This document shows positions 937 through 13,083 of a stretch of 36,025 nt of DNA, in pieces. A model generated the notes under the pieces. The model ran no database searches. It saw nothing but the letters and a program-made list of their open reading frames with translations, and was not told where the DNA came from. Numbering within the stretch: position 1 is the first letter of the stretch; each line of letters begins with the position of its first letter. This DNA is from an uncultured Erysipelotrichaceae bacterium (GTDB lineage Bacteria > Bacillota_I > Bacilli_A > Erysipelotrichales > Erysipelotrichaceae): positions 1-36,025 of the forward strand of contig CADCRE010000056.1 of the NCBI GenBank assembly GCA_902803785.1, read 5' to 3'. A program made the translations under genes and the position numbers.

Positions 937-1572
937 TTAATTTGTCCTGCGGGATCCGGATCTTTCTTCCAGTTCCCGCTGATGGCGTTCCGCCAGTCGG
1001 GCATATTTCTTCGCCTCGGAATGAACCCCCTTGTTTTCATACATCCGGGAGATGTTTCTCTCCAGTGCCGGGAGTTCCTGCGGTTTTGCCTTCTTCGCTC
1101 TTTCCAGAGTTTCGTTCAGGTATTTATGACCGCCGTTGATGAAGGTATCGTAAGTCACTTCCACGTCTTTCTTGTTTTTATAGACGTTCAGCGATTCCAG
1201 TTCCTGATAGTACTTCTTCGCCTCAGCCTTTTTGTTGCGATCGACGTAGTAGTAGAAGATCCTCTGATAGATCTTTTTCTTCTGCGAATCCTTCAGAGTC
1301 ATCTGTTCGAAATTCCGGATCGAAGCTTCGATGCTGTTTTGTTCCTTGCGGGCTTCCGCAACATTGAAACGGATCAGTTCCTTATCGAAAGCGCTGAGTG
1401 TCTTGCCGCCGAGGGATCCCGCGATCGCCTCGAATCTCGCATCATCGCCCTGAAAGGCCGCCTGAAACAGCTTGTTGGAAGTGTTCCTGCGCAGGATGAA
1501 ATACAGCAGTTCGAACAGCAGGAGCGCATCCGCTACGATCACACCGATCAGTACCAGTACATCTTTGTTCAT
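937..1572 (-). CDS. Membrane-anchored helical-repeat protein, function unknown
   Basis: I do not recognise a family for this 211-residue protein. One N-terminal membrane helix (about residues 5-27) is followed by a hydrophilic, strongly charged, alpha-helical region. That region has TPR-like spacing of aromatic and small residues, for example KKIYQRIFYYYVDRNKKAEA and a later AKKYARLAERHQRELEE, so a TPR-type protein-binding domain is plausible. The start ATG overlaps the stop of the preceding zinc-ribbon gene (ATGA at 1569-1572), so the two products are probably made together and may form a complex. It is the last gene before a clear terminator. Topology and function are open. Confidence 0.6.
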   Translation of the reverse strand: MNKDVLVLIGVIVADALLLFELLYFILRRNTSNKLFQAAFQGDDARFEAIAGSLGGKTLSAFDKELIRFNVAEARKEQNSIEASIRNFEQMTLKDSQKKKIYQRIFYYYVDRNKKAEAKKYYQELESLNVYKNKKDVEVTYDTFINGGHKYLNETLERAKKAKPQELPALERNISRMYENKGVHSEAKKYARLAERHQRELEERSGSRRTN

Positions 1573-1976
1573 ACGGGCTGCCTCAATGTCAGGACCAGAA
1601 AGACCACGGAGATCGCAATGATGATAGCTCCGAGGATCCTGACCATCTTCGTCAGTTTTTTGATCGGATATCTCGTAAATGTGATGAAACTGGAAAAGAT
1701 GTAGGGATAGATCAGCAGTGCCGCACCGGCAATGATCATTCCGATATACATCGGTACCAGTTTATACTTACCGGAAAAGATGAATGTGGAAAGGATGAAG
1801 CCGATGCTTCCGCAGAAGATCATGATATAGGAACGGTTCTTGTATTCCTTGTCCCTGTTCAGATAATCTACGGTCAGTTTCCTGCATTCATTCGAACAGA
1901 CATCGAAAGTACCGTTGGATACGTTGATCTTCAGGCCCCCTTCCGAATACTCTTTTCCGCAATAGACGCACTTCAT
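1569..1976 (-). CDS. Zinc-ribbon membrane protein, function unknown
   Basis: This 135-residue protein starts with a treble-clef or zinc-ribbon-like module, C3-x2-C6 and C27-x3-C31, then three predicted membrane helices at about residues 49-67, 73-95 and 113-131. The cysteine module should bind one zinc ion on the cytoplasmic side; what it contacts is unknown. The ATG lies 3 bases after the stop of the class II aldolase gene, and its own stop overlaps the next ATG, so it is embedded in the leftward operon. Position suggests co-transcription with the PTS genes, but nothing in the protein suggests sugar metabolism. It may simply be a read-through passenger. Confidence 0.6.
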   Translation of the reverse strand: MKCVYCGKEYSEGGLKINVSNGTFDVCSNECRKLTVDYLNRDKEYKNRSYIMIFCGSIGFILSTFIFSGKYKLVPMYIGMIIAGAALLIYPYIFSSFITFTRYPIKKLTKMVRILGAIIIAISVVFLVLTLRQPV

Positions 1977-1979
1977 TGT

Positions 1980-2624
1980 TTACTTCTTTCTGTAATCTCC
2001 GAATCCGCTTCTGACGACATCCATCTGTTCATCTGTCAGAAGGATCGGCTCCTTGCCGGTGAGACGGCAATTGTAATACAGCTGGCAGCAGAATTCGATC
2101 TGTTCCGCGACATCCATCGCATACGGAAGAGACTTCCCGGTCGACAACAGACCGTGGTTACCTAAAATGCAGGCACGGTTATCACCCATGGCGTTATAGG
2201 CGGTTTCGGCCAGTTCATATGTTCCGAACTGAACATAAGGGATATAAGGCACTTCGCTTCCGGAATAGGCGACCAGATAGTGCAGCTGCGGAACGCTCCA
2301 GCCCAGGCACGCCAGAGTCGTCGCATAGACGGAGTGCGTATGGACGACGGCATTGATGTTGTTCTTTCTCTGATAGAAGATCCTGTGCATATCCACTTCG
2401 CTGGAAGGTTTCCTGTCTCCTTCCACGATGGTTCCGTCCGGTCTCAAAACGACACAGTCTTCCGGTGAAGTCTTATAGTAGTCGAAACCGGAAGGCGTGA
2501 TCGCAAACAGGTCCAGTTCCCTGTTGTATACAGAGATATTGCCGAACGTTCCTACCGTCAGATGGCGGTCCACCATGATCTTGCCGTACTTTACGATCTC
2601 TTCTCTTTCTTCTTTCAGTAACAT
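1980..2624 (-). CDS. Class II aldolase, FucA-like
   Basis: This 214-residue protein belongs to the class II aldolase/adducin family. Zinc ligands expected from L-fuculose-1-phosphate aldolase are present as H95 and H97 (VVHTHSVYATT) and H157 (LGNHGLLSTG). The catalytic acid of the aldolases is kept as E76 in RKPSSEVDMH, favouring an aldolase over an epimerase. Such enzymes split a ketose 1-phosphate into DHAP and an aldehyde. I chose the ATG at 2624, which follows AAAAGGGGAAAAAGAA; a longer frame to 2708 would overlap the upstream dehydrogenase by 68 bases and adds no family-like sequence. The gene starts 16 bases after that dehydrogenase and most likely shares its operon. The natural substrate is not determined. 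Confidence 0.85.
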   Translation of the reverse strand: MLLKEEREEIVKYGKIMVDRHLTVGTFGNISVYNRELDLFAITPSGFDYYKTSPEDCVVLRPDGTIVEGDRKPSSEVDMHRIFYQRKNNINAVVHTHSVYATTLACLGWSVPQLHYLVAYSGSEVPYIPYVQFGTYELAETAYNAMGDNRACILGNHGLLSTGKSLPYAMDVAEQIEFCCQLYYNCRLTGKEPILLTDEQMDVVRSGFGDYRKK

Positions 2625-2640
2625 TTCTTTTTCCCCTTTT

Positions 2641-3726
2641 CTATAATGTGATCTTTCTGTAGTTGACGATCCTGTCCGGAATGTCTTTTTCGATGATCTC
2701 GTCGACATCTCTGGTCACGATATACGGTGACAAGGCGATCGAATCCAAAGTCGTGCCGGCCAGATGGGATGCCACAAGAACGTTCTCCATCTGTAAGAGC
2801 GGATCATCTTCCGCGATCGGTTCCCTGTCAAAGACATCGAGCGCAGCACCGGCGATCAGTCCTTCCTTCAAAGCCTGACGCAGATCGTCGTAGTTCAGTA
2901 TCCCGCCTCTGGCAGAATTGATGAAGTAGGCATCCTTTTTCATTTTACGGAATTGTTCGATGGTAAACCACTTCTCCGTAGCCGGAACAAGTCTCAGATG
3001 CAACGAGACGATGTCTGACGTAGAGAGCAGATAATCCAGATCATCCGTATATTCCAGGGCGTTCAGACCTTTCTTTTCGAGAGATTCTTTTGTAACGAAA
3101 GAATCATATACGATCGTATGGACTCCGAGTCCCAGCAGTTTTTTCGCCAGGACACAACCGATGTTGCCCATGCCGATGAGACCGACATGGGAGTTGCATA
3201 AGGTCTTCTGGAAGGAGGAATTGTAATAGGTCCTCTTCCACTGGCCCTGATGCAGGAAATTGTGAGACAGTGTGATGTCTCTGGTCAGATCTATCATCAT
3301 TCCGATCACAAATTCTCCGACCGCATCCGCATTGCGGACACAGTTGACGACCGGAATGTTTCTTGAAGTAGCGGCTTCGACATTGATATGTTCGACACCG
3401 CCGCGATTTGTCATAATCAGTTTGAGATCTTTTGCGGCTTCGATCAGTCTGGAAGATACCGGACAGAAATGGACCATCAGTACATTGGCGTCGCTGATCA
3501 GCTCATAGGCTTCTTCCGGGATCTCGATCCCCTCCGGACCGTGGCGTTCGATATTCAGCTGCAGTTCCGGGAAATCCTCCTTGTTTTCCGGTCCGAAAAA
3601 CAGTGTACGGATCTCCCCGCAGTTAATTTTACTCTTCTTTACGGCATCGATCATGACTTCGATGTCGACATTCGCATCGGTGATCAGCAGGATCTTCTGC
3701 GGATCTCTTGACAATTCATTGAGCAT
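2641..3726 (-). CDS. D-isomer-specific 2-hydroxyacid dehydrogenase (phosphoglycerate dehydrogenase-like)
   Basis: The 361-residue protein has the NAD-binding glycine motif GMGNIGCVLAKKLLGLG near residues 187-203 and the catalytic triad of the family: the arginine in NSARGG, the glutamate in DVFDREP, and the histidine in ASHLAGTT. It would interconvert a 2-hydroxyacid and a 2-oxoacid with NAD(P). There is no C-terminal ACT domain, so it is not the regulated serine-biosynthesis SerA form. It sits between the PTS EIIC gene and the FucA-like aldolase, so a role in oxidising or reducing a C2-C4 fragment from sugar breakdown is plausible. A perfect 14-bp stem-loop lies in the 87-base gap upstream. 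The substrate is not known. Confidence 0.85.
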   Translation of the reverse strand: MLNELSRDPQKILLITDANVDIEVMIDAVKKSKINCGEIRTLFFGPENKEDFPELQLNIERHGPEGIEIPEEAYELISDANVLMVHFCPVSSRLIEAAKDLKLIMTNRGGVEHINVEAATSRNIPVVNCVRNADAVGEFVIGMMIDLTRDITLSHNFLHQGQWKRTYYNSSFQKTLCNSHVGLIGMGNIGCVLAKKLLGLGVHTIVYDSFVTKESLEKKGLNALEYTDDLDYLLSTSDIVSLHLRLVPATEKWFTIEQFRKMKKDAYFINSARGGILNYDDLRQALKEGLIAGAALDVFDREPIAEDDPLLQMENVLVASHLAGTTLDSIALSPYIVTRDVDEIIEKDIPDRIVNYRKITL

Positions 3727-3749
3727 AGGAACGACCTTTCCTTTTTTAA

Positions 3750-3781
3750 AGGGCTATTGCTATTTTCATAGCAATAGCCCT
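3750..3781. other. Perfect 14-bp intercistronic stem-loop
   Basis: AGGGCTATTGCTAT (3750-3763) and its exact complement (3768-3781) flank a 4-base loop. Neither strand has a proper U-run after it (minus strand continues TTTAAAAAAGG), so it is a weak terminator at best. Lying between the EIIC gene and the dehydrogenase, it more likely protects the transporter mRNA 3' end or lowers expression of the enzyme genes. Confidence 0.7.
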
Positions 3782-3813
3782 ATATCACTCTTGTGTTTAC
3801 CCTTAACTAAATG

Positions 3814-5226
3814 CTATGCCTTGTAAGCAGCAGCGTTGTTCTCCAGGTAATCGTAAACCTTCTGCTTGTTCTTTCTGAACCAGACATACAGAACAGCATA
3901 TACAACTACCAGAGCAGCGATGGCGACGATGCCGCCTTTGTAGAACGCATAGAATAATGCGATCATTAACGGGTGACATACGATACCGAATGAGCAAACG
4001 TTCAAAGCGCCTTCAGGAACGGTGAACTGGCCGGTGCCGACAGCGACTTCCGTGAATGTAGGAGCCAGCTGAGAGAACAGGATCAGACCGAGACCGAACC
4101 AGATAGCACCCATGACGATGGACTTCGCGATGTTACCATTGGATACACAGACGAATACTTCGACCATGTAAGGTAATGCACAGAGGTCAGCCATCGGCAG
4201 GACGTTGTTGCCCGGAAGGATGAAGGACAGGAACAGCATGATTGGGATCAGCAGGACGCCTGTGACCAGGGTATTTGTTTCACCGTAACCGCAAGCGTCG
4301 TTGACAGACAGGAACCATCTGCGGTTCTTAGCGGAAGCGGCTGCTTTTGACTTGTAAGCATCTGACATTGAAGTGAATGCAGAAGCGAAGATAGCAGCAA
4401 CTTTCGGGAAGACAGCCATGATGGCAGCCGTGTTGATTGCAACACCTAATGCAGTACCCCAGGCATTCATTGCGTTAGCACCGAACAGGAATGGCCATTC
4501 GCCGAGTAAACCGATCAGAAGACCGACAAACAGACCGATCATCATTGGTTCACCGAGCAGACCTAACTTCTTCTGCAGGTCAGCAGCGTTGATCTTGATC
4601 TTGTTGAAGCCGAGCTTCGTCAGGATCCAGTCCATCAGAACGGCGAACGGGAAGGACTCGAGGTGGTGAGGAGCTGTCATACAGCATCCATCATACTCGT
4701 AGTATGTGCCCCATCTTAATGCGCACATTTCAGAGAACAGCAGGATGTAGAACAGCTGGCATACCATCAGAGCCATAGCCAATAACATATTCTTTGTTAA
4801 AGCATACAGCATGGAGCCCCAGACCATGAAGGAATAGTTGTTCCAAAGGTCGGATGCCATGAAGACATCAGTGTAACCTACGAAGAACAGGATGAGCTGC
4901 AGAGCGATCGCAACACCGATGAACAGGATACCTACTGTAGTAGAGTAAGCGATGATCGAAGTTGACTGCCAGCCGGTATCAATCGTAGAAAGATGAACGC
5001 CGGTATTGTCGACCATGGACTGAACAACAGGAGCGATAACGCCTGAGTAAGAGTTGATGACGAGGTTGAAGCCTGTCAGACCAACACCACACAGCAGCGC
5101 GGAATTGAATGCTTTCTTGGTGTCAACACCCATCACCTTAGAAAGAATGAAAAGGATGATTGGGATGATGATGCCGGAACCGAAAGCTCCAAAAATACCA
5201 GATAACGTGTTTAAAAACGCTTCCAA
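3814..5226 (-). CDS. PTS EIIC component, galactitol (Gat) family
   Basis: The 470-residue membrane protein has around 10-12 hydrophobic segments and matches the EIIC-Gat family in length and in its opening. It forms the membrane channel of a phosphotransferase system and moves the sugar or sugar alcohol in while EIIB phosphorylates it. The start codon is TTG (5224-5226), preceded by AGAGGGGGAAATCTATT; no ATG fits better. The 88-base gap before it is AT-rich and holds no clear promoter. Separate genes for HPr, EIIA and EIIB lie directly upstream on the same strand, giving a full PTS. Gat-family permeases carry galactitol, arabitol, xylitol and other polyols or pentoses, so the substrate cannot be named. 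Confidence 0.9.
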   Translation of the reverse strand: MEAFLNTLSGIFGAFGSGIIIPIILFILSKVMGVDTKKAFNSALLCGVGLTGFNLVINSYSGVIAPVVQSMVDNTGVHLSTIDTGWQSTSIIAYSTTVGILFIGVAIALQLILFFVGYTDVFMASDLWNNYSFMVWGSMLYALTKNMLLAMALMVCQLFYILLFSEMCALRWGTYYEYDGCCMTAPHHLESFPFAVLMDWILTKLGFNKIKINAADLQKKLGLLGEPMMIGLFVGLLIGLLGEWPFLFGANAMNAWGTALGVAINTAAIMAVFPKVAAIFASAFTSMSDAYKSKAAASAKNRRWFLSVNDACGYGETNTLVTGVLLIPIMLFLSFILPGNNVLPMADLCALPYMVEVFVCVSNGNIAKSIVMGAIWFGLGLILFSQLAPTFTEVAVGTGQFTVPEGALNVCSFGIVCHPLMIALFYAFYKGGIVAIAALVVVYAVLYVWFRKNKQKVYDYLENNAAAYKA

Positions 5227-5314
5227 AATAGATTTCCCCCTCTTTTTTAAAGTTAAGAAATAAAAACTGAATTAATACAAATTTTTGCGGTAAACAACAA
5301 GAACAATAACAAAT

Positions 5315-5614
5315 TTATTTGTATTTTTCTTCGAGAACAGCGATTATCTCATTGATAACCTTTTCTTCGCCCATACCGGTGACCATGCCCATTCCCTTTA
5401 CTTTAGGAATGCCGACATCTTCGGTGACCGGAGAAGCGCAGACGATGACATCGATGTCTTTTCCTGTAATGACGGAATTCAGACTGACAGGGCTTGCCTC
5501 ATACATCGTGGCATCCCAGCCTTTGTCTTTGAGCTGATCTTTGATCTTCAGTGCGATCATTGAAGATGTGACAACTCCGGATCCGCATACAGTAACTACC
5601 GTGCATGTTTTCAT
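5315..5614 (-). CDS. PTS EIIB component, galactitol type
   Basis: This 99-residue protein carries the phosphocysteine loop VTVCGSGVVTSSM, with C10 as the phosphoryl acceptor, as in GatB. It passes phosphate from EIIA to the incoming substrate at the EIIC site. I chose the ATG at 5614, which follows TAAGGAGGAAAATTCT; an ATG 30 bases earlier would place this site inside the gene and adds ten residues without family similarity. It lies between the EIIA and EIIC genes. Later residues such as IDVIVCASPVTEDVGIPKVKG fit the family fold. Confidence 0.9.
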   Translation of the reverse strand: MKTCTVVTVCGSGVVTSSMIALKIKDQLKDKGWDATMYEASPVSLNSVITGKDIDVIVCASPVTEDVGIPKVKGMGMVTGMGEEKVINEIIAVLEEKYK

Positions 5615-5659
5615 AGAATTTTCCTCCTTATGCTTTATTAACACCCTGTTTCCAAGGTA

Positions 5660-6118
5660 CTAACCAATGTACTTTACGGCAGCTTCATAGACTTCTTCCT
5701 CGGAAGCAGCTGCCTTGAATGCTTCCAAAGCTTCCTTGTTCTGGAATACGCCCAGAACTCTGGTGATCGTTCCGATCTGATCTTCCGGATTGGTGATAGC
5801 CATCATGAACAGCATCTCGGCCTGGACCTTGCGTCCCGGTTCACCCATATGTTCGAATTCGACCGGATGAGCCAGTTTCGCGACAGTCACGCCCGGCTTG
5901 TTGACATGGATGATGTCGGTATGCGGCATGGCGATGGAGATCCCATCCAGTTCCAAACCGGTCGCGAAGACCTTTTCTCTGGCAACGACTGCATCGATAT
6001 AGGTATCCTTGACATACCCTTCCTTCAAAAACAGCTGTCCGACCTGACGGATCGCATCTTCGCTGTCTTTGGCATCGACGCCGTACATGATCAGTTCTCT
6101 GTGAATCGCCTGTTCCAT
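5660..6118 (-). CDS. PTS EIIA component, fructose/mannitol/galactitol type
   Basis: The 152-residue protein is an EIIA of the fructose-mannitol class. The phosphorylated histidine is H66 in SIAMPHTDIIHV. It takes phosphate from HPr and gives it to the EIIB cysteine. The start is well supported by GGAGGATCTC before the ATG, and the gene begins 9 bases after the HPr stop. Length and the closing VFQNKEALEAFKAA region fit GatA-like proteins. It is in one leftward operon with HPr, EIIB and EIIC. Confidence 0.9.
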   Translation of the reverse strand: MEQAIHRELIMYGVDAKDSEDAIRQVGQLFLKEGYVKDTYIDAVVAREKVFATGLELDGISIAMPHTDIIHVNKPGVTVAKLAHPVEFEHMGEPGRKVQAEMLFMMAITNPEDQIGTITRVLGVFQNKEALEAFKAAASEEEVYEAAVKYIG

Positions 6119-6127
6119 GAGATCCTC

Positions 6128-6391
6128 CTACTCCTCGAAGCTCTCCAGAAGATCCATGATCTTCTTCAGAGATTCCTCTTCATGTTCTCCTTCGACCTGG
6201 ACCGTGATATGCATGCCCTTGACCATGGCACCCATCAGCACGGAAAGGATGGACTTCGGATTTATGGAGAGACCCTTCTCAGTGATGATCGTGATGTTGT
6301 CCTCCAGACCTGAACACAGCTGCGTGAGCATCGATGCCGGTCTGGCATGGATCCCCGTCGGGTTCTTTACAATGAATTCCTGGCTAACCAT
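6128..6391 (-). CDS. HPr-family phosphocarrier protein
   Basis: At 87 residues this is a full-length HPr. H15 sits in NPTGIHARPAS, the site phosphorylated by enzyme I, and S47 in INPKSILSVLMGAM matches the regulatory serine (Ser46) that HPr kinase uses in Firmicutes. It therefore keeps both known control sites. It is the first gene of the PTS operon, after AAGGAGATAGCATT. HPr is usually next to ptsI; its place here at the head of a sugar-specific operon suggests a dedicated copy, though it could also be the only HPr of the cell. The genome outside the window would settle that. Confidence 0.9.
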   Translation of the reverse strand: MVSQEFIVKNPTGIHARPASMLTQLCSGLEDNITIITEKGLSINPKSILSVLMGAMVKGMHITVQVEGEHEEESLKKIMDLLESFEE

Positions 6392-6409
6392 AATGCTATC
6401 TCCTTTTCA

Positions 6410-6415
6410 ATCATA
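6410..6415 (-). promoter_or_regulatory. Putative -10 box for the HPr-PTS operon
   Basis: TATGAT on the minus strand lies 18 bases before the HPr ATG, directly abutting the TATAAT of the opposing regulator gene. The -35 region is poor, which suits a regulated promoter. Confidence 0.4.
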
Positions 6416-6421
6416 TATAAT
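6416..6421 (+). promoter_or_regulatory. -10 box of a leaderless promoter for the SorC-type regulator
   Basis: A consensus TATAAT ends 6 bases before the ATG at 6428, so transcription should begin at or next to the A of the start codon. No ribosome-binding site is present and no good -35 box is seen. Confidence 0.6.
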
Positions 6422-6427
6422 TTAAGT

Positions 6428-7372
6428 ATGAGCAAGAACGATAATCTATTGGCCTATGTTGCTGAACTGTACTACGAACGCGGCCTTTCTCAGCAGGAGA
6501 TCGGTTCGATCATCGGGTCTTCCCGTCCGACCGTTTCCCGTCTCATCGAGGATGCCAAGCGTCAGGGGATCGTCAAGATCATCATCGAGACGCCTGTCAG
6601 CAAGAACAACAAACTTTCCAACAAACTCCGCAAGGCTTTCAAACTTCGCGATGCGATCGTCGTGAATGCCGCATTCGATTTCGATAAATCCATCGATGTC
6701 TGCGGCAAGGCCGTTGCAGCGATCCTCTCTACCTATCTGCAGCCGGGCATGACTCTGGGAGTCACCTGGGGCAGATCTGTCAATGCGGTCGTCGATGCGA
6801 TCGATGACTCTACGTTCTACGATATCAACGTCGCTCAGATGGTCGGCTGCATCAGTATGGGGAATCCCGCGATCGACGGTTTCTCCACGGCACAGCGCCT
6901 GGCCCGCAAGATGCATGGAACTTACTCTTCCATCAATACTCCTCTCTTCGTCGAAGGGAAGGAAGTATACCGTTATCTGATCAATGAACCGATGATCCAC
7001 GACGCCCTAACCAAGGCCGCTTCCGTCGATGTCTGTATCAACGGTGTCGGTGTATTTGACGACCGGAAGAATTCCATCCATCAGTCCGGCTACTTCGAGA
7101 GCTACAATCTGGACCGTTATCGGGAGAAAGGAGCTGTCGCTTCGCTTGCCGGAAGGTTCATTGACATCAACGGCAGACAGGTCGATGTCGAGAATATCTA
7201 TACCATTTCCGCCCCTCTCGATGTCGTACGCAATGCGCCGATCTCGATCGTCATCAATGCGACAGCGGAGAAGGCAACGGCTACTCTGGCAGCACTCAAC
7301 GGCGGGTATGTCGATATCCTGGTCGTCGATGAGCCGCTGGCTCAGGAACTTCTTGAACTCAGAGAGAGATAG
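6428..7372 (+). CDS. SorC/DeoR-type sugar-responsive transcriptional regulator
   Basis: The 314-residue protein has an N-terminal helix-turn-helix (about residues 19-48, GLSQQEIGSIIGSSRPTVSR) and a long C-terminal sugar-binding domain of the SorC/CggR family, with GVTWGRSV and INGVGVFD as typical stretches. Such regulators bind DNA as oligomers and respond to a phosphorylated sugar. I start at the ATG at 6428, because the upstream extension in frame reads through the promoter and HPr leader. It lies between the divergent PTS operon and the convergent alcohol dehydrogenase gene, and should control both plus the transketolase operon. Whether it activates or represses is not visible. Confidence 0.85.
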   Translation: MSKNDNLLAYVAELYYERGLSQQEIGSIIGSSRPTVSRLIEDAKRQGIVKIIIETPVSKNNKLSNKLRKAFKLRDAIVVNAAFDFDKSIDVCGKAVAAILSTYLQPGMTLGVTWGRSVNAVVDAIDDSTFYDINVAQMVGCISMGNPAIDGFSTAQRLARKMHGTYSSINTPLFVEGKEVYRYLINEPMIHDALTKAASVDVCINGVGVFDDRKNSIHQSGYFESYNLDRYREKGAVASLAGRFIDINGRQVDVENIYTISAPLDVVRNAPISIVINATAEKATATLAALNGGYVDILVVDEPLAQELLELRER

Positions 7373-7386
7373 ATCTCTCTTTTTTT
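7363..7386 (+). terminator. Terminator after the SorC-type regulator
   Basis: AGAGAGAT and ATCTCTCT form a near-continuous palindrome followed by a T-run on the plus strand. It overlaps the regulator stop codon and the dehydrogenase stop codon (7385) on the other strand. Confidence 0.55.
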
Positions 7387-8431
7387 ATTCCAATGTATCG
7401 TCGAGGACGATGATGCCTTTGGTGACTTCGCCCTTGATCATCTTCTCGAAACCTTCACGCCAGTTTTCCAACGGCGTGAGATAAGTGGCGATCTTTTCCG
7501 GGACGACGACGCCGTCTCTCATCAGTTCCAGGGCTTTGACCCAGGAAGAAGGTTTCTGGGAACGGGAACCGACGTATACGATCTCCCTGTGGAGGATCAG
7601 ATCGGTCCAGATCGTCTCGTGTGTATTGGAGAAGACGCCCATCTGTACGACTGTACCCTTGCGTCTTACGATCTCCAGGGCCTTGTTCAATGCAGGAACA
7701 GCTCCGGAACATTCGAAGCACTTGTCTGCACCGACATTGTTGGTCATCTCCATGACGATCGCCTTGAGGTCTTCCTTCTGCTGGTCGACACAGCGGTCTG
7801 CACCGGCAGCAAGCGCAAGTTCGAAACGGTGTTCATCCTGCGTCAATCCTGCAATGATGACGGTCGCACCCTGTGATTTCGCGACCTGAGATACCATCTG
7901 GCCGATTGCACCGGCACCGAAGACGACAACGATGTCACCCGGCTGAACATTGCCCTTTTCGATCACGGAATGGACACCGCAGGCAAGCGGCTCCGTCAGA
8001 CTCGCACTGAGCAGGCTGACGTTATCCGGAAGCACATGGACGGATTCTTCTCTGGAGACCAGATATTCCGCCATGGAACCGTTGATCTGTGTACCGATAC
8101 CCTGACGGTTTCCGCAGAGGTTGTAGTCTTTGCTTAAGCACATCGGGCAGACACCGCATGTCTTGAACGTCGTTTCGGATGTGACACGGTCACCGACCTT
8201 GATCTTCTTGACATCCGGTCCGACTTCTACGACGACGCCGGAGAATTCGTGTCCCAGGATGACCGGCGGCTTCGTGCTGGCATACGTTCCGTTGAACGCA
8301 TGCAGATCGGTACCGCAAATACCAGAATAAGCGATCTTGATCTTTACCAGATCCCCTGTCGCTTCCGGTTCCGGAACATCCATATATTCCATATGGTCAT
8401 AGCCAACTTCGGTTTTTACAACAGCTTTCAT
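7385..8431 (-). CDS. Zinc-dependent alcohol dehydrogenase, polyol (GatD/sorbitol/threonine dehydrogenase) type
   Basis: This 348-residue MDR-family enzyme has the catalytic zinc residues in SGICGTDLHAF and GHEFSGVV, the structural zinc lobe with four cysteines in CGVCPMCLSKDYNLC, and the NAD-binding loop VVFGAGAIGQMVSQVAK. In a PTS context the likely reaction is oxidation of an imported alditol phosphate to a ketose phosphate, as done by galactitol-1-phosphate and arabitol-phosphate dehydrogenases. It has its own strong promoter in the intergenic region shared with the transketolase operon, and ends against the SorC-type regulator. Substrate choice is inference from neighbours; plain threonine or butanediol dehydrogenases look similar. 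Confidence 0.85.
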   Translation of the reverse strand: MKAVVKTEVGYDHMEYMDVPEPEATGDLVKIKIAYSGICGTDLHAFNGTYASTKPPVILGHEFSGVVVEVGPDVKKIKVGDRVTSETTFKTCGVCPMCLSKDYNLCGNRQGIGTQINGSMAEYLVSREESVHVLPDNVSLLSASLTEPLACGVHSVIEKGNVQPGDIVVVFGAGAIGQMVSQVAKSQGATVIIAGLTQDEHRFELALAAGADRCVDQQKEDLKAIVMEMTNNVGADKCFECSGAVPALNKALEIVRRKGTVVQMGVFSNTHETIWTDLILHREIVYVGSRSQKPSSWVKALELMRDGVVVPEKIATYLTPLENWREGFEKMIKGEVTKGIIVLDDTLE

Positions 8432-8484
8432 ATTACCTGCCTTTTCTAAGATTATCTAACGTCAATATCTACGTTCTTACAATC

Positions 8485-8513
8485 ATTATAAAACCTCCAT
8501 ATTTCAGCGTCAA
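8485..8513 (-). promoter_or_regulatory. Promoter of the alcohol dehydrogenase gene
   Basis: TTGACG (8508-8513) and TATAAT (8485-8490) are spaced by exactly 17 bases on the minus strand. The predicted leader is about 45 bases. This is the best-matching promoter in the window. Confidence 0.8.
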
Positions 8514-8521
8514 CAAAAAAT

Positions 8522-8574
8522 GTAAGCCTTTACTTTTTACTTTTGTAATGTGCATGTTGACATTTGTTCACAAA
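8522..8574. promoter_or_regulatory. Candidate operator cluster between dehydrogenase and transketolase genes
   Basis: GTAA and TTAC half-sites alternate at 8522-8548 (GTAA, TTAC, TTAC, GTAA). A separate inverted repeat, TTTGTTCACAAA at 8563-8574, lies between the -35 and -10 boxes of the transketolase promoter. These are plausible binding sites for the SorC-type regulator; that link is inference. Confidence 0.35.
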
Positions 8575-8585
8575 AAAAGAATAAT
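8557..8585 (+). promoter_or_regulatory. Promoter of the transketolase operon
   Basis: A consensus TTGACA (8557-8562) is followed after 17 bases by AATAAT (8580-8585). The leader is about 42 bases and ends in the strong ribosome-binding site AAGAAGGAGGTAACA. Confidence 0.7.
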
Positions 8586-8633
8586 GAAATTAAGCTTTAA
8601 GTATTACTAAAATCTATAAAGAAGGAGGTAACA

Positions 8634-9539
8634 ATGGACAAAAAAATCTACTCTACCGAAGAGATCCAGGCCATTGCCAACAGCATCCGTAAGCAGATCC
8701 TTGGGATCGCTTTAAAGACAGGCGGCTGTTACTTGGCCCAGGCATGCTCTTCCGCCGAGATCGTGGCTTCTCTGTACACGAACGTAATGAATCTCGGTCC
8801 GTCTGAAGGTTTATGGGAGCCGATCCCGTTCCCGGGAGTACCGGGTCCGGACAACATGGACTACCCGAAAGGTGCCATGTACAACGGCGCACCTGCACCA
8901 GACAAGGACCGTTTCTTCGTTTCCTGCTGCCACTACGCATCTGTCATCTACTCCGCATTGGCTGCCGTAGGAAGACTCACTCCTGAATGGGTCGACAAGT
9001 TCAATGTCGATGGCTGGAACATGGAAATGATCGGTGCCGAACATTCTCCTGGTTTCGAGAACACTGCCGGCTCACTCGGTCAGACCATCTCCATCGCCGG
9101 AGGTACCTGCCATGCCAGAAAGAGAAGAGGCGACACCGGAAGATGCTTCGTCATGCTCGGAGACGGTGAACTGCAGGAAGGTCAGACCTGGGAATGCATC
9201 CAGGCTGCCAGCTACTACAAACTTGACAACATGATCGTCGTCATCGATGCCAACGACCAGCAGGTCGAAGGACAGATCGAAAATCAGATGACGGAAGAAC
9301 CGCTGGTCGAACGTTTCAAATCATTCGGTGCGGAATGTGTCGAAGTCAACGGTCACGATATCGAAGCTTTCTGCAAGGCATTCGAAACACCTCACGAAGG
9401 AAAGCCGCTGGTCGTCATCGGAAGGACACGCGGTACTACCGGGATTCCGCCTCTTGAGAAGCGCTGGCCGTTCTTGCACTTTGTAAGGATCTCAGCTGCC
9501 GAGAAGGAAGAATTCCAGAAGATCTACGATGCAATGTAA
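8634..9539 (+). CDS. Split transketolase, N-terminal (thiamine diphosphate-binding) subunit
   Basis: This 301-residue protein has the thiamine-diphosphate/Mg motif GDGELQEGQTWE (residues 176 on) with N208 about 30 residues later, and a TAGSLGQTISIAGG stretch typical of transketolases. The usual N-terminal substrate motif GHPGGS is missing: the aligned segment reads GGCYLAQACSS (residues 30-40). H100 in FFVSCCHYASVIYSA replaces the usual SKGH segment but keeps the histidine. It moves a two-carbon ketol unit between sugar phosphates once paired with the next gene product. Altered residues suggest a substrate other than, or besides, xylulose 5-phosphate. It is first in a four-gene operon. Confidence 0.88.
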   Translation: MDKKIYSTEEIQAIANSIRKQILGIALKTGGCYLAQACSSAEIVASLYTNVMNLGPSEGLWEPIPFPGVPGPDNMDYPKGAMYNGAPAPDKDRFFVSCCHYASVIYSALAAVGRLTPEWVDKFNVDGWNMEMIGAEHSPGFENTAGSLGQTISIAGGTCHARKRRGDTGRCFVMLGDGELQEGQTWECIQAASYYKLDNMIVVIDANDQQVEGQIENQMTEEPLVERFKSFGAECVEVNGHDIEAFCKAFETPHEGKPLVVIGRTRGTTGIPPLEKRWPFLHFVRISAAEKEEFQKIYDAM

Positions 9540-9553
9540 GAAGGAGAAAAAGA

Positions 9554-10540
9554 ATGAAAATCGAAGTTAATACACATGAAAAGAATATTCTCCGTCTTGC
9601 GGAGGAACATCCAGAACTCGTCGTCCTGTCTGCTGACCTGGGTACATCCTGTGAAGTAAAGAAGTTCAGGGCTATGTATCCTGACCGCTACTTCACCATG
9701 GGTATCGCCGAACAGAACATGGTCTCATGGGCTGCCGGTCTGGCCAGAGAAGGATACAGACCTTTCATCCACACCTTCGCCGTATTCGAATACAGAAGAG
9801 TGCTGGACCAGGTCGAAATGTCCGTTGCCTACCCTAACCTTCCGGTCGTCTTCGTCGGCTTCGTGCCGGGCATCACGACACCGGGCGGTGTCTCCCATCA
9901 GTCCATCAACGACGTCGCTGTCATGCGGTCCGTTCCGAATATGGCGGTCTTCGATGTCGGCGATGCGACAGATATCGACTATGTCCTTGACCTCGCTTAC
10001 AACTACAACGGTCCTGTCTACATCAGACAGCTGCGCAAGGAAGTTCCGCGTCTGTTCCCGGCGGATGAACCGGTCGTCTTCAACAGAGCGAGAGTCCTTT
10101 CCGAAGGTGACGATGTCGTCCTGTTGTCTTCTTCCATCTGCACGGAAGAAGCGATGCGTGCAACCGCTGTGCTGAAGGAAAGAGGCGTCTCTGTCCAACA
10201 TATGCATGTCACGACCCTGAAGCCGTTTACCGATCCGACGATCGTAGATGCGATCGCCAAGGCAAAATACGGTGTCGTCACGATCGAGAACCATCTGAAC
10301 ATCGGCGGTCTCGGTTCTGCGACAGCTGACCTGATGGCTGAACACGGTCTCGGCAAGAGACTGATCAAGATCGGTCTGGAAGGCTACGCTCACGGCGCAT
10401 CCAAGATGTATCTGATGGAAAAATACGGCATCAACGCCATGAACCTGGTCAAGGCTGTCGAAAGCCTGACCGGCAAAGAACTCAACATCAAGAAAGAAGA
10501 CCTGGAAGAAGTTCGTTTCGTCGACTTCCTGGAAGTCTAA
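9554..10540 (+). CDS. Split transketolase, C-terminal subunit
   Basis: The 328-residue partner supplies the pyrimidine-binding domain: the catalytic glutamate that activates thiamine diphosphate is E53 in TMGIAEQNMVSWAAG, and a typical C-terminal domain follows (ENHLNIGGLGSATADLMAE). The segment that reads DGPTHQ in ordinary transketolases is GGVSHQ here (111-116), again a change near the substrate site with the His-Gln kept. It starts 14 bases after the N-terminal subunit gene, with AAGAAGGAGAAAAAGA as ribosome-binding site. Split transketolases with this kind of divergence occur in pentose, apulose and other sugar operons. Its last base overlaps the next gene's ATG. Confidence 0.88.
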   Translation: MKIEVNTHEKNILRLAEEHPELVVLSADLGTSCEVKKFRAMYPDRYFTMGIAEQNMVSWAAGLAREGYRPFIHTFAVFEYRRVLDQVEMSVAYPNLPVVFVGFVPGITTPGGVSHQSINDVAVMRSVPNMAVFDVGDATDIDYVLDLAYNYNGPVYIRQLRKEVPRLFPADEPVVFNRARVLSEGDDVVLLSSSICTEEAMRATAVLKERGVSVQHMHVTTLKPFTDPTIVDAIAKAKYGVVTIENHLNIGGLGSATADLMAEHGLGKRLIKIGLEGYAHGASKMYLMEKYGINAMNLVKAVESLTGKELNIKKEDLEEVRFVDFLEV

Positions 10541-11208
10541 TGCGATACGAGATGTGCGTCTGGGACCTGGACGGTACCCTCCTGCACACCCTTCCCGGAC
10601 TGAGATACTTCGATAATCTGACTCTGGAACACTTCGGATTTCGGCAGATCACCCCGGAAGACAGTTTCGAACTGATCAAGTATCCGCTCGGTCAGTACTA
10701 TGAAAACATGCTTCTGAAGGGCGGCTGTCCGGAAGAGAAGGTCGATGAACTTGCGGCGGAAGTGACCGCATATGATTTCTCTTTGTACAGTGCAGACTGT
10801 ACCAGACTGGTGGAAAAATTCGCCGGTGTCAAGGAGACAGTCAGAAAGCTGAACGGTCTGAAGATCGTCAATGCGGTCCATTCCAACAAGTTCGACAGCA
10901 TCTCGAAGAAGATCGTAAAGACGTTCTTCACGGATGAGATCGCCTATATCTGCGGTCAGTCGGACGATCATCCTTCCAAACCGAAGCCCGGAAGCCTGGA
11001 CAAGCTTCTGAAAGAAGCGAATATCCCTTCCGACAGAGTCCTCTATATCGGAGATACCGAAGTCGACATCCTCACGGCCCGCAACAATCACGTCGACTGT
11101 GCCGCCGTGACCTGGGGCTACCAGTTAAGAGAAGTCCTGGAATCCTATCATCCGGACTATCTCATCGACAGTCCCGAAGAAATACTGAGAATCATTAAGG
11201 AGAAATAA
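10540..11208 (+). CDS. HAD-family phosphatase, phosphoglycolate phosphatase-like
   Basis: The 222-residue protein carries all HAD motifs: DLDGTLLHT (motif I, nucleophile Asp in residues 9-11), NAVHSNK (motif II serine), KPKPGS (motif III lysine) and YIGDTEVDI (motif IV acids). A helical cap lies between motifs I and II, as in phosphoglycolate phosphatases. It would remove phosphate from a small sugar or acid phosphate. The ATG overlaps the stop of the transketolase C subunit (TAATG), so translation is coupled. In this operon it may dephosphorylate a side product or an end product that leaves the cell; the substrate is not known. Confidence 0.8.
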   Translation: MRYEMCVWDLDGTLLHTLPGLRYFDNLTLEHFGFRQITPEDSFELIKYPLGQYYENMLLKGGCPEEKVDELAAEVTAYDFSLYSADCTRLVEKFAGVKETVRKLNGLKIVNAVHSNKFDSISKKIVKTFFTDEIAYICGQSDDHPSKPKPGSLDKLLKEANIPSDRVLYIGDTEVDILTARNNHVDCAAVTWGYQLREVLESYHPDYLIDSPEEILRIIKEK

Positions 11209-11209
11209 G

Positions 11210-11902
11210 ATGTTTTCTGAACAGAAACGGCAAATCATTGAATACGGCATGCTGCTGGACAGATATGAGCTCGTCTCTCTGACCTGCGGCAATCTGGCGA
11301 TCCGCATGCCGACAGGAGAGATCCTGATCACTCCTTCCGGAATGATGTATGAAAAGATGGTCGAAGATGATGTCATCGTCTGCGACATCGACGGAAATAT
11401 CATCGAAGGCGACAAGAAACCTTCTTCCGATACTCCGGCTATCCTTTACATCTTCAAACACAGACCGGACGTCAACGGCGTCATCCATACGCATCAGCCG
11501 TATGCGACTGCCCTGTCCCTGATCCCGGGCATGAATGAATTCAGAGTCTGCTTCACCGGTATGGCGAATGCCTGCTGCGGCAATGTCCCGATCACTCCGT
11601 ATTCCAATGCGGGTTCCGTAGATATGGGCATCGATGTCGTAAACAACGCCGGAAGTTCCCGTGCAGTCATCCTGTCCAACCACGGTGTCATGACCATCGG
11701 ACCTTCCCTGAAGGATGCGATGTATGCGGCAGTCTATCTCGAAGAGACCGCAAAGGCATATCTGGCTGCAAGAGCCTGCTGCCCGGACGGAAAGATCAAC
11801 GGAATGACCGATGAACAGATCCAGACGATGGTCGATGTCTTCAAGTTCTACGGTCAGGGTACCGCAACGATCCCTGCTGATCTGGTAAACAAAAAACAGT
11901 AG
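11210..11902 (+). CDS. Class II aldolase / sugar-phosphate epimerase family
   Basis: This 230-residue member of the class II aldolase/adducin family has metal ligands H93 and H95 (VIHTHQPYAT) and H158 (LSNHGVMTIG). At the catalytic position it has aspartate, D74 in KKPSSDTPA, where FucA-type aldolases have glutamate and L-ribulose-5-phosphate 4-epimerases have PSSDTP. That points towards an epimerase, but other AraD residues are not clearly visible. It follows the HAD gene after one base; AAGGAG lies at the HAD gene's end. It is the last gene of the operon. If an epimerase, it could feed xylulose phosphate to the transketolase. Confidence 0.75.
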   Translation: MFSEQKRQIIEYGMLLDRYELVSLTCGNLAIRMPTGEILITPSGMMYEKMVEDDVIVCDIDGNIIEGDKKPSSDTPAILYIFKHRPDVNGVIHTHQPYATALSLIPGMNEFRVCFTGMANACCGNVPITPYSNAGSVDMGIDVVNNAGSSRAVILSNHGVMTIGPSLKDAMYAAVYLEETAKAYLAARACCPDGKINGMTDEQIQTMVDVFKFYGQGTATIPADLVNKKQ

Positions 11903-11936: not shown

Positions 11937-11962
11937 AAAGCAGAACTGTAAAGTTCTGCTTT
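11937..11962. terminator. Bidirectional terminator
   Basis: AAAGCAGAACT and its exact complement form an 11-bp stem with a GTAA loop, with T-rich sequence after it in both directions. It ends the transketolase operon and the MarR gene on the opposite strand. Confidence 0.8.
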
Positions 11963-11965
11963 TCT

Positions 11966-12406
11966 TTATTCTTCTTCCAGGATCTTGTACAGGATGGAAT
12001 ACAGATACATGGCTTCTTCCGGTTCCAGATGGATCGTCTCTGCGATCGATGCGGGAACATCCACCGCCCTGTCTTTCAAGGCGTTCCCTTTTTCCGTCAG
12101 GGAGATCACCAGATTCCGCTCATCCGAACGGTTCCGGATCATCCGCACATATCCCTTCTCCTCCAGTTTCTTCAGTAACGGAGTCAGAGTGTTCGGTTTC
12201 AGGAACAGTCTCTCTCCCAGTTTCTTCTCATTGATGTCTTCTTCTTCCCAAAGGACCATCATGACGATGTACTGTGTATAGGTCAGATCCAGTTTATCCA
12301 ACAGCGGCTTATAGTTGCGGATGATCTTGTTGGAGACCGCATACAACGGAAAGCACAGCTGATTGCGTAAACGGATCGGTTCGTATCTGTCTTTGATCTC
12401 GCTCAT
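11966..12406 (-). CDS. MarR-family transcriptional regulator
   Basis: The 146-residue protein is a typical MarR regulator: DLTYTQYIVMMVLWEEEDI leads into a winged helix with LFLKPNTLTPLLKKLEEKG as recognition helix, and RSDERNLVISLTEKG as wing. The RNLVISLTEKG wing and the cysteine in QLCFPLYA near the N terminus recall the OhrR branch, in which that cysteine senses organic peroxides; this is suggestive only, since no Ohr gene is adjacent. It may instead control the neighbouring acetyltransferase. Its promoter is of the leaderless kind (TATAAT ending 6 bases before ATG). Confidence 0.85.
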   Translation of the reverse strand: MSEIKDRYEPIRLRNQLCFPLYAVSNKIIRNYKPLLDKLDLTYTQYIVMMVLWEEEDINEKKLGERLFLKPNTLTPLLKKLEEKGYVRMIRNRSDERNLVISLTEKGNALKDRAVDVPASIAETIHLEPEEAMYLYSILYKILEEE

Positions 12407-12412
12407 AGTTTC

Positions 12413-12441
12413 ATTATATCGTACACGAATTATTCAGGCAA
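12413..12441 (-). promoter_or_regulatory. Leaderless promoter of the MarR gene
   Basis: TTGCCT (12436-12441) and TATAAT (12413-12418) are 17 bases apart on the minus strand; the -10 ends 6 bases before the ATG. The -35 lies inside the end of the acetyltransferase gene. No ribosome-binding site is present. Confidence 0.7.
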
Positions 12442-13083
12442 ACTCTCACCCGCCAATGTCTCCAAATAATGATCCATCCGTTCCTTAAACATCCCGATGT
12501 GGACCCCGTCTATGAAACGGTGGTTCACTTCCAGTGAGATCGAAAGATAGATCCTGTCGTTCTCTCTGGTATATTTGCCCCAGGCGATATGCGGGATATT
12601 GTCGTCCTTCATCTTCGGATCGTTCCTGTCCCGTTCATTGGTCAGAGCGGTCAGCTCGATCCAGGGCAGACAGGAGAAATAGATCAGATCGTCCGTTTCC
12701 TTATTCAGTTCGATGAAACAGTCCTGATCCATAGACTGCTTTGCGGCCATCCGGCAGTATTCATCGATGGGATCGATCATATCGGTCGTGACGATATAGA
12801 ACTGTTCTTCCCCTTTTCTCAGATCGGTAAAGCTCGGTCTCCTGTAAGGATATATGACGAGTTCCTCATCTTTGATGCCGATCCGGAACGCTTCGATGTC
12901 GTTCAAAGCCTTCGTACACAGCCAGATCATCCCGTAGTAAAAGGAAAGAGAATGTTTCTTCGTATATTCATACAGTTCCGTCACATCCTGTCGGAACGTA
13001 ACCATATAGAAAGGATCGGATATGTTTGAAAAGAACTCATAGGCTTCTCTTCTCTTCCAGTGTTCAGGATCCAGTTTCTTCAT
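12430..13083 (-). CDS. Chloramphenicol acetyltransferase (CatA)-like O-acetyltransferase
   Basis: At 217 residues this matches the CatA trimeric acetyltransferase family in length and order. The catalytic histidine is H188 and the paired aspartate D192, in EVNHRFIDGVHIG; true CatA enzymes have HHxxxDG, so the first histidine is asparagine here. The IPHIAWGKY segment matches the conserved WGK region. The acetyl acceptor may be chloramphenicol or something else, since many chromosomal homologues confer no resistance. The start overlaps the previous gene by 20 bases, with GGAGGGAAGAAACAG as ribosome-binding site inside it. No terminator separates it from MarR downstream. Confidence 0.8.
   Translation of the reverse strand: MKKLDPEHWKRREAYEFFSNISDPFYMVTFRQDVTELYEYTKKHSLSFYYGMIWLCTKALNDIEAFRIGIKDEELVIYPYRRPSFTDLRKGEEQFYIVTTDMIDPIDEYCRMAAKQSMDQDCFIELNKETDDLIYFSCLPWIELTALTNERDRNDPKMKDDNIPHIAWGKYTRENDRIYLSISLEVNHRFIDGVHIGMFKERMDHYLETLAGESLPE

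Follow-up and report, generated by a model that had tools for sequence, protein, structure and literature searches.

The window examined here, a 36,025-nucleotide stretch of contig CADCRE010000056.1 (assembly GCA_902803785.1) from an uncultured Erysipelotrichaceae bacterium, carries a sugar-utilisation cluster in which a galactitol-type phosphotransferase system (PTS) is joined to a split transketolase (TkN and TkC, together TkNC), two class II aldolases (ald1 and ald2), a zinc dehydrogenase (ADH) and a hydroxyacid dehydrogenase (HADH). The gene set is genuine and widely conserved, and TkN/TkC belongs, by alignment and phylogeny, to a subfamily that is not ordinary transketolase. The cluster is possibly an operon for a pentitol without the C5 hydroxyl, namely a 5-deoxypentitol (e.g., 5-deoxy-D-ribitol) or its 5-methylthio analogue, a reading to which a probability of about 0.45 is given. 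The genes, their order and conservation, the motifs and the phylogeny are directly established, and every reaction is inferred.

Conservation of the gene set

All twelve genes named in an earlier note, made from the sequence alone, are present in the families claimed for them according to profile matches, and the cluster holds no kinase gene, as that note had stated. It had also held that the combination matches no known pathway, and none describing it was found in the curated families and the literature searched. The neighbourhood search that it proposed was performed as a profile search of genome contigs with the EIIC alignment, which gave 80 loci, and the window proteins were then run by tblastn with thresholds set gene by gene. 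A nine-protein core (EIIA, EIIB, EIIC, HADH, ald1, ADH, TkN, TkC and ald2) is complete in 24 of these loci, the carriers being ruminant Erysipelotrichaceae, Butyricicoccus/Agathobaculum, Caproicibacter, Oscillibacter, Lachnospiraceae, Sinanaerobacter, Khoudiadiopia and Coriobacteriales. In the Enterococcus avium group, the core is present but rearranged, and its ald2 genes, just 33-37% identical, may be analogues and not orthologues. Because the core recurs in this way, and because, within the order, the genomes marked by TkC (E<=1e-110) and by close EIIC relatives are one set of ten from the window's genus (the window included), the conservation of the set is far beyond chance.

Membership outside the core is graded. 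The SorC-type regulator accompanies 23 of the 24 complete loci and the dedicated HPr 17, and several loci carry their own PTS Enzyme I besides. The HAD phosphatase occurs in 10 of the 24, and intact sister loci keep the same gene order with the exception of this gene; it was rejected as a core enzyme because several sister species lack it. The small zinc-ribbon membrane gene downstream of ald1 is a further cluster member that the earlier note overlooked, with orthologues directly after or near ald1 in 18 loci, including those of Clostridia, Coriobacteriales and a Spirochaetales metagenome-assembled genome.

The EIIC belongs to the EIIC-GAT family (207 bits to PF03611 against a cut-off of 24.2), and its score to the galactitol-specific model TIGR00827 (234 bits) lies under the cut-off of 542. 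A galactitol route was rejected, the EIIC and dehydrogenase models being under cut-off and the cluster holding no tagatose-bisphosphate aldolase. In a phylum-wide sample of 392 genomes, only the window's own genome was found with EIIC at E<=1e-90. Plasmid-borne EIIC relatives (36-38%; Limosilactobacillus, Levilactobacillus) stand in other contexts, none with the full cluster; on a Levilactobacillus brevis plasmid (L069), a 36% relative lies beside ulaG/ulaD-like ascorbate genes. EIIC and HADH also stand together beside other enzymes (L101-L103, L106, L108, L112-L115, L116, L121, L139), which by eye are an iron-containing-dehydrogenase-like protein, or a glycerol-1-phosphate-dehydrogenase-like protein with a HAD protein. 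These loci suggest that HADH-linked PTS make up a wider family serving several substrates.

A transketolase subfamily beside RuBisCO-like proteins

TkN and TkC have the two-half layout of a split transketolase and keep the thiamine pyrophosphate motif GDGE, and TkN is modelled by AlphaFold as a transketolase N-chain (predicted local distance difference test score 86.5; match to 6yak at Z 30.4, 2.7 A over 268 residues). In transketolase, His30, His103 and Asp477 (yeast numbering) are substrate contacts. When the window pair was compared with the split enzyme of C. hydrogenoformans, the apiose-cluster pair of E. coli and others, the His30 motif SGHPG was found as GGCYL in the window TkN, with Tyr at the position of His30 (fuller motif GGCYLxQACS), the His103 motif GHPD as MIGAEH, and the GEDG of the Asp477 region of TkC as -PGG (reading T-PGG), in which the Asp is lost. 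TkN has in addition an insertion of about 28 residues, and the altered motifs and the insertion are common to the whole PTS-linked set. In a tree whose outgroup branches are long, the PTS-linked TkNC group with those found beside RuBisCO-like proteins (RLP), to the exclusion of the other transketolases (support 98/97, branch 2.4), and within this group the PTS-type TkNC is a single clade (100/99). By these alignments, TkN/TkC is a non-ordinary subfamily without the usual substrate-contact residues. Sister and further host genomes encode an ordinary split transketolase at another site; the window's own assembly, 74% complete, showed none, only a DXS-sized frame.

Beyond the PTS operons, relatives of TkNC were sought among the nearest plasmid matches and in samples of 398 Pseudomonadota and 291 Clostridia genomes. 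The nearest plasmid matches (45-46%) are all rhizobial. The annotated one, Rhizobium rosettiformans (L150), has an mtnK-mtnA-TkN-TkC-RLP operon with an ABC transporter, whose MtnK and MtnA exceed their curated cut-offs, and the other two plasmids carry the same genes by tblastn. Sampling added eight non-PTS loci, seven with TkN, TkC and RLP adjacent and one (L169) not; TkN-TkC-RLP is thus found in 10 of 11 non-PTS loci (L150-L152, L167, L168, L170-L174), and the full mtnK-mtnA-TkN-TkC-RLP order in the three rhizobial plasmid loci and one near relative. mtnA scores over its cut-off in all seven sampled TkNC-RLP genomes and is absent from the L169 genome, where TkNC stands without RLP; this link is support, not proof, mtnA being common in bacteria. 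One clostridial mtnA is preceded by what reads as a methylthioadenosine (MTA) phosphorylase gene. The TkNC beside RLP and that of the window have the same changes (His30 to Tyr, MIGAEH, loss of Asp477, and the insertion). No RLP is found among the window cluster genes, and the PTS clade has ADH and ald2 in its place.

The RLP is under the cut-off of the MtnW model, and its nearest PDB entry is 3qfw, which we take to be of the Deep-Ykr type. The Deep-Ykr RLP of R. rubrum converts 5-methylthioribulose-1-phosphate to 1-methylthio-D-xylulose-5-phosphate (PMC4958253, PMC6302742). For an enzyme that is RLP-adjacent and has lost the contact to the C1 hydroxyl, 1-substituted xylulose-5-phosphates are thus plausible transketolase substrates. 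The TkN-TkC-RLP operons of rhizobia, other Pseudomonadota and Clostridia look like an undescribed branch of methylthioribose/5-deoxyribose metabolism; a literature search found no paper linking transketolase, RuBisCO-like proteins and methylthioribose, a weak result since most subscription papers lay outside its reach. It is tentatively predicted, at somewhat less than even odds, that TkN/TkC represents a transketolase for 1-deoxy- or 1-methylthio-ketopentose-5-phosphates, a new activity among thiamine-diphosphate enzymes, and HADH a new class of alditol-1-phosphate dehydrogenase. The transketolase would serve two converging pathways, behind RLP for methylthioribose/5-deoxyribose (mtnK-mtnA-TkNC-RLP), and behind the PTS, ADH and an AraD-like epimerase for 5-deoxypentitols in gut bacteria.

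Some further observations concern the same genes. Loci L170 and L171 carry two EamA-type transporters besides. The window's genus itself carries mtnA (L175-L177), in two sister species beside an apparent metG, with neither mtnK nor a DrdA-like gene adjacent to it. The arabitol-induced PTS cluster of B. methanolicus includes a gene annotated as S-methyl-5-thioribose-1-phosphate isomerase (PMC6685057), a curious connection of pentitol PTS operons with isomerases of the mtnA type.

Predicted pathway and rival readings

The two aldolases differ at the catalytic position as the earlier note had read them: the alignment agrees with Glu in ald1 (KPSSE) and with Asp in the AraD-like ald2 (KPSSD). The best PDB sequence match of ald1 is 6btd, which is DrdA, the 5-deoxyribulose-1-phosphate aldolase of Bacillus thuringiensis (PMC6079011), and identity is 52% to DrdA, 43% to the FucA of S. 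pneumoniae and 38% to that of E. coli. Some minimal loci (for example L104, L129, L131 and L144) hold EIIABC, HADH and ald1 only, plus a regulator where the flank is covered; their ald1 is 56-60% identical to DrdA, and that of L099 and L118, operons with an extra gene, up to 63%. HADH is the sole dehydrogenase of the minimal operons, so that in the simplest reading it makes the ketose-1-phosphate cleaved by ald1. It has the Rossmann domain and keeps the Arg-Glu-His set of the D-2-hydroxyacid dehydrogenase family, and the EIIC-linked orthologues share an RGG(V/L/I)E loop unlike that of the reference phosphoglycerate dehydrogenase; HADH is accordingly proposed as a putative alditol-1-phosphate 2-dehydrogenase. 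The nearest curated models of ADH are L-threonine 3-dehydrogenases, all under cut-off, and its best PDB matches are threonine 3-dehydrogenases, which oxidise CH3-CHOH. ald2 scores 191 bits to the PRK06557 epimerase model (cut-off 251) and 108 to araD (cut-off 389), and KPSSDT is invariant in 18 clostridial-type orthologues.

The route outlined in the earlier note (PTS, dehydrogenase, epimerisation, transketolase and an aldolase branch) still fits, except that two branches are preferred to a single line, as the presence of two dehydrogenases and two class II aldolases is best explained in this way. HPr and EIIABC would import the substrate and phosphorylate its sole CH2OH to give a 5-deoxypentitol-1-phosphate. 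In one branch, HADH would oxidise the CHOH beside the CH2-O-P, as phosphoglycerate dehydrogenase does, to 5-deoxyribulose-1-phosphate, which the DrdA-like ald1 would cleave to dihydroxyacetone phosphate (DHAP) and acetaldehyde. In the other, ADH would oxidise the CHOH beside the methyl, yielding 1-deoxy-L-ribulose-5-phosphate from the ribo configuration, and ald2 would, by stereochemical reasoning, invert C4 to give 1-deoxy-D-xylulose-5-phosphate; this inversion is the reaction of AraD and would therefore explain why an AraD-type protein follows TkC. TkNC, without the residue that holds the C1 hydroxyl, would then produce glyceraldehyde-3-phosphate and a thiamine-bound two-carbon unit, to be released or handed to some acceptor. 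Because the alditol phosphate would be oxidised beside its methyl, an RLP would not be needed in the PTS operon. SorC would control both divergent operons, and HAD would be an optional accessory phosphatase. The tie of the TkNC subfamily to methylthioribose/5-deoxyribose genes is what points to C5-deoxy or C5-thio pentitols, and mammals are known to produce 5-deoxyribitol (PMC6079011, PMC6302742).

Several points weigh against this pathway. The PTS operons have neither mtnK nor RLP nor any gene naming a deoxy sugar. ald1 scores above the cut-off of the curated model for L-fuculose-phosphate aldolase (278 against 264 bits), and DrdA itself shares 52% identity with a FucA. The Arg that binds the carboxylate is retained in HADH, so that a true 2-hydroxyacid substrate is possible. 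The epimerase role of ald2 is a guess, and its model is nearest to 6btg, an aldolase (Z 29.5), with AraD at Z 25.2, a comparison that does not tell the two functions apart. The loss of His103 could serve some other C1 substituent, and the active site varies within the subfamily, the equivalent of yeast His69 being Gln in three clostridial TkNC-RLP members.

The pentitol input suggested in the earlier note stands in part: a C5-deoxy or C5-thio pentitol, which it did not name, is favoured, and catabolism of an ordinary pentitol (ribitol, arabitol or similar) is the main rival, itself unlikely. In that route, the PTS would deliver a pentitol phosphate, ADH would form L-ribulose-5-phosphate, ald2 D-xylulose-5-phosphate, and TkNC would lead into the pentose phosphate pathway, while HADH and ald1 would form ribulose-1-phosphate and cleave it to DHAP and glycolaldehyde. 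Both galactitol-type EIIABC and a zinc polyol-type dehydrogenase are in the window, as in PTS arabitol/ribitol operons, for example the arabitol operons with a zinc pentitol-phosphate dehydrogenase in Listeria, Enterococcus avium and Bacillus methanolicus (PMC6685057); ADH relatives of about 50% adjoin other galactitol-type PTS genes in Enterococcus, and among the curated models, that of ribulose-1-phosphate aldolase ranks second for ald1, under its cut-off. However, His30, His103 and Asp477 are all missing from TkNC (the C. hydrogenoformans enzyme has the three of them, the apiose-cluster pair both histidines), the kin of TkNC are RLP- and mtnA-linked, and the hosts already own an ordinary transketolase. 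A 6-deoxyhexitol (fucitol, rhamnitol) is a doubtful substrate, for which the dehydrogenase would give fuculose- or rhamnulose-1-phosphate, ald1 would release DHAP and lactaldehyde, and HADH would act on lactate/pyruvate or on the polyol phosphate. The score of ald1 to the fuculose model speaks for it, as do the large RhaD-type aldolase/dehydrogenase gene apparent from the sequence after ald1 in Oceanobacillus (L118) and another in a rhizobial locus, but ald1 is closer to DrdA than to FucA, and a transketolase of the RLP/mtnA type, with a C5 ketose phosphate as its expected substrate, is left unexplained.

It is improbable that the PTS imports an aldonate. In such a route, the phosphate of a 2-hydroxy or 2-keto acid would be the substrate of HADH, and one of the class II enzymes would decarboxylate or cleave it, as 3-oxo-tetronate-4-phosphate decarboxylase does. 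In favour of this reading, HADH keeps its Arg-Glu-His set and travels with EIIC even where other enzymes change, the oxo-tetronate decarboxylase model gives about 110 bits with either aldolase (under the cut-off of 250), and the 36% EIIC relative beside ulaG/ulaD on the Levilactobacillus plasmid is in keeping with it; against this, the enzymes of the known acid-sugar pathways (lactonase, kinase, isomerase, a recognised decarboxylase) are absent from the cluster, the substrate loop of HADH departs from the GxGxDxID pattern, and ADH and TkNC would have no explanation. In characterised apiose clusters, the enzyme that cleaves apulose-4-phosphate is either a transketolase of the split type or a class II aldolase, a precedent for the apulose-like branched input named in the earlier note. 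In such a route, apiitol would enter and apulose-4-phosphate be cleaved by transketolase and aldolase. This input is weakened to the point of being very improbable by the apiose-cluster pair of E. coli SE15 (located with PMC13001218), which is 29-30% identical, keeps GGHTG and PGHP, i.e., His30 and His103, is without the insertion and lies a long branch apart.

The labels 'transketolase', 'galactitol PTS' and 'L-fuculose aldolase' on the cluster genes are probably wrong. 5-Deoxyribose and methylthioribose are near-universal by-products of S-adenosylmethionine enzymes, whose anaerobic fate is partly known, oxygen-dependent methionine salvage being barred. One subfamily in RLP operons and in a rumen/gut PTS operon would add a carbon-carbon cleaving step to this chemistry, and gut bacteria could live on deoxypentitols reportedly excreted by hosts. 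Cultured carriers of the operon exist, among them Agathobaculum, Caproicibacter fermentans and Enterococcus avium, making the idea directly testable.

Locus layout and relation to known systems

The cluster (positions 1569-11902) consists of two divergent groups arranged around the SorC-type regulator (Table 1): ADH followed by HPr-EIIA-EIIB-EIIC-HADH-ald1 and the zinc-ribbon gene on the minus strand, and TkN-TkC-HAD-ald2 on the plus strand. An ald1 start at 2708 was rejected, as it overlaps HADH and is without homologue support. The ADH-TkN gap holds strong divergent promoter-like sites, and a conserved TTGACATTTGTTCA at 8557-8570, which overlaps the plus-strand promoter, is a possible SorC operator; TGAACAAATGTCAA is almost invariant across ten ADH-TkN gaps. 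A search for catabolite-repression (cre) sites gave loose matches only, mostly within genes.

Table 1. Features of the cluster and its control regions (positions in the window)
Feature	Positions	Strand	Match or remark
Zinc-ribbon (CxxC...C...C) and membrane-helix protein	1569-1976	-	weak TRASH/zinc-ribbon matches only
ald1, class II FucA/DrdA-like ketose-1-phosphate aldolase	1980-2624	-	NF005302, 278 bits (cut-off 264)
HADH, D-2-hydroxyacid-dehydrogenase fold (PGDH-like), NAD	2641-3726	-	PF02826/PF00389
PTS EIIC, EIIC-GAT family	3814-5226	-	PF03611, 207 bits
PTS EIIB	5315-5614	-	PF02302, 42 bits; start set from homologues
PTS EIIA (PTS_EIIA_2)	5660-6118	-	PF00359, 106 bits
Dedicated HPr	6128-6391	-	TIGR01003, 78.7 bits (cut-off 47.9)
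SorC/DeoR-type sugar-binding regulator	6428-7372	+	PF04198, 183 bits
ADH, zinc medium-chain dehydrogenase, threonine-dehydrogenase/polyol type	7385-8431	-	PF08240, PF00107
Divergent promoter region, ADH-TkN gap	8485-8585	both	minus-strand hexamers 8513..8485; plus-strand 8557..8585
TkN, N-terminal half of divergent split transketolase	8634-9539	+	best sequence match 6yak
TkC, C-terminal half of divergent split transketolase	9554-10540	+	best sequence match 6yaj
HAD phosphatase (PGP-like), accessory	10540-11208	+	PF13419
ald2, class II aldolase/4-epimerase fold	11210-11902	+	PF00596
Intrinsic terminator 3' of ald2	11937-11962	+	

Downstream of the zinc-ribbon gene and overlapping its end, a 211-residue protein (937-1572, minus strand), TPR-like by eye and with no family match, is kept within the genus only (7 loci). 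Just past the other end lie a MarR/OhrR-type regulator (11966-12406; 165 bits, cut-off 200) and a CatA-like O-acetyltransferase family protein (12430-13083; 108 bits to chloramphenicol acetyltransferase, cut-off 270).

Among known systems, 5-deoxyribose salvage, or the DHAP shunt, proceeds by DrdK-DrdI-DrdA in B. thuringiensis and by MtnK-MtnA-Ald2 in E. coli and R. rubrum (PMC6079011, PMC10986504). The window resembles it in that its DrdA-like class II aldolase is predicted to cleave 5-deoxyribulose-1-phosphate, and differs in that entry is by PTS and dehydrogenase instead of kinase and isomerase and in the extra ADH-ald2-TkNC branch. The MTA-isoprenoid shunt of R. rubrum, with a Deep-Ykr RLP and a cupin (PMC4958253), shares the predicted type of intermediate, a 1-substituted D-xylulose-5-phosphate, whereas the window has neither RLP nor cupin, and a transketolase-like pair would act on the compound, reached via dehydrogenase and epimerase. 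The PTS D-arabitol operons, including atlABCD of B. methanolicus, match the window in the transporter and the zinc dehydrogenase, but the arabitol-induced genes of B. methanolicus as described are without a transketolase pair, hydroxyacid dehydrogenase or class II aldolase (PMC6685057). The apiose-cluster transketolase AptAB of E. coli SE15 (PMC13001218) is likewise split and encoded in a sugar operon that has a regulator of the SorC type, and differs in its low identity, canonical histidines, ABC import and kinase, and the split transketolase of C. hydrogenoformans (6yak) has the same fold and two-subunit layout with 33-38% identity and canonical catalytic residues. The TkN-TkC-RLP operons differ from the window in having RLP, joined in rhizobia by mtnK-mtnA and an ABC transporter, and in being without PTS, ADH and ald2, yet they share its transketolase subfamily and the same active-site changes.

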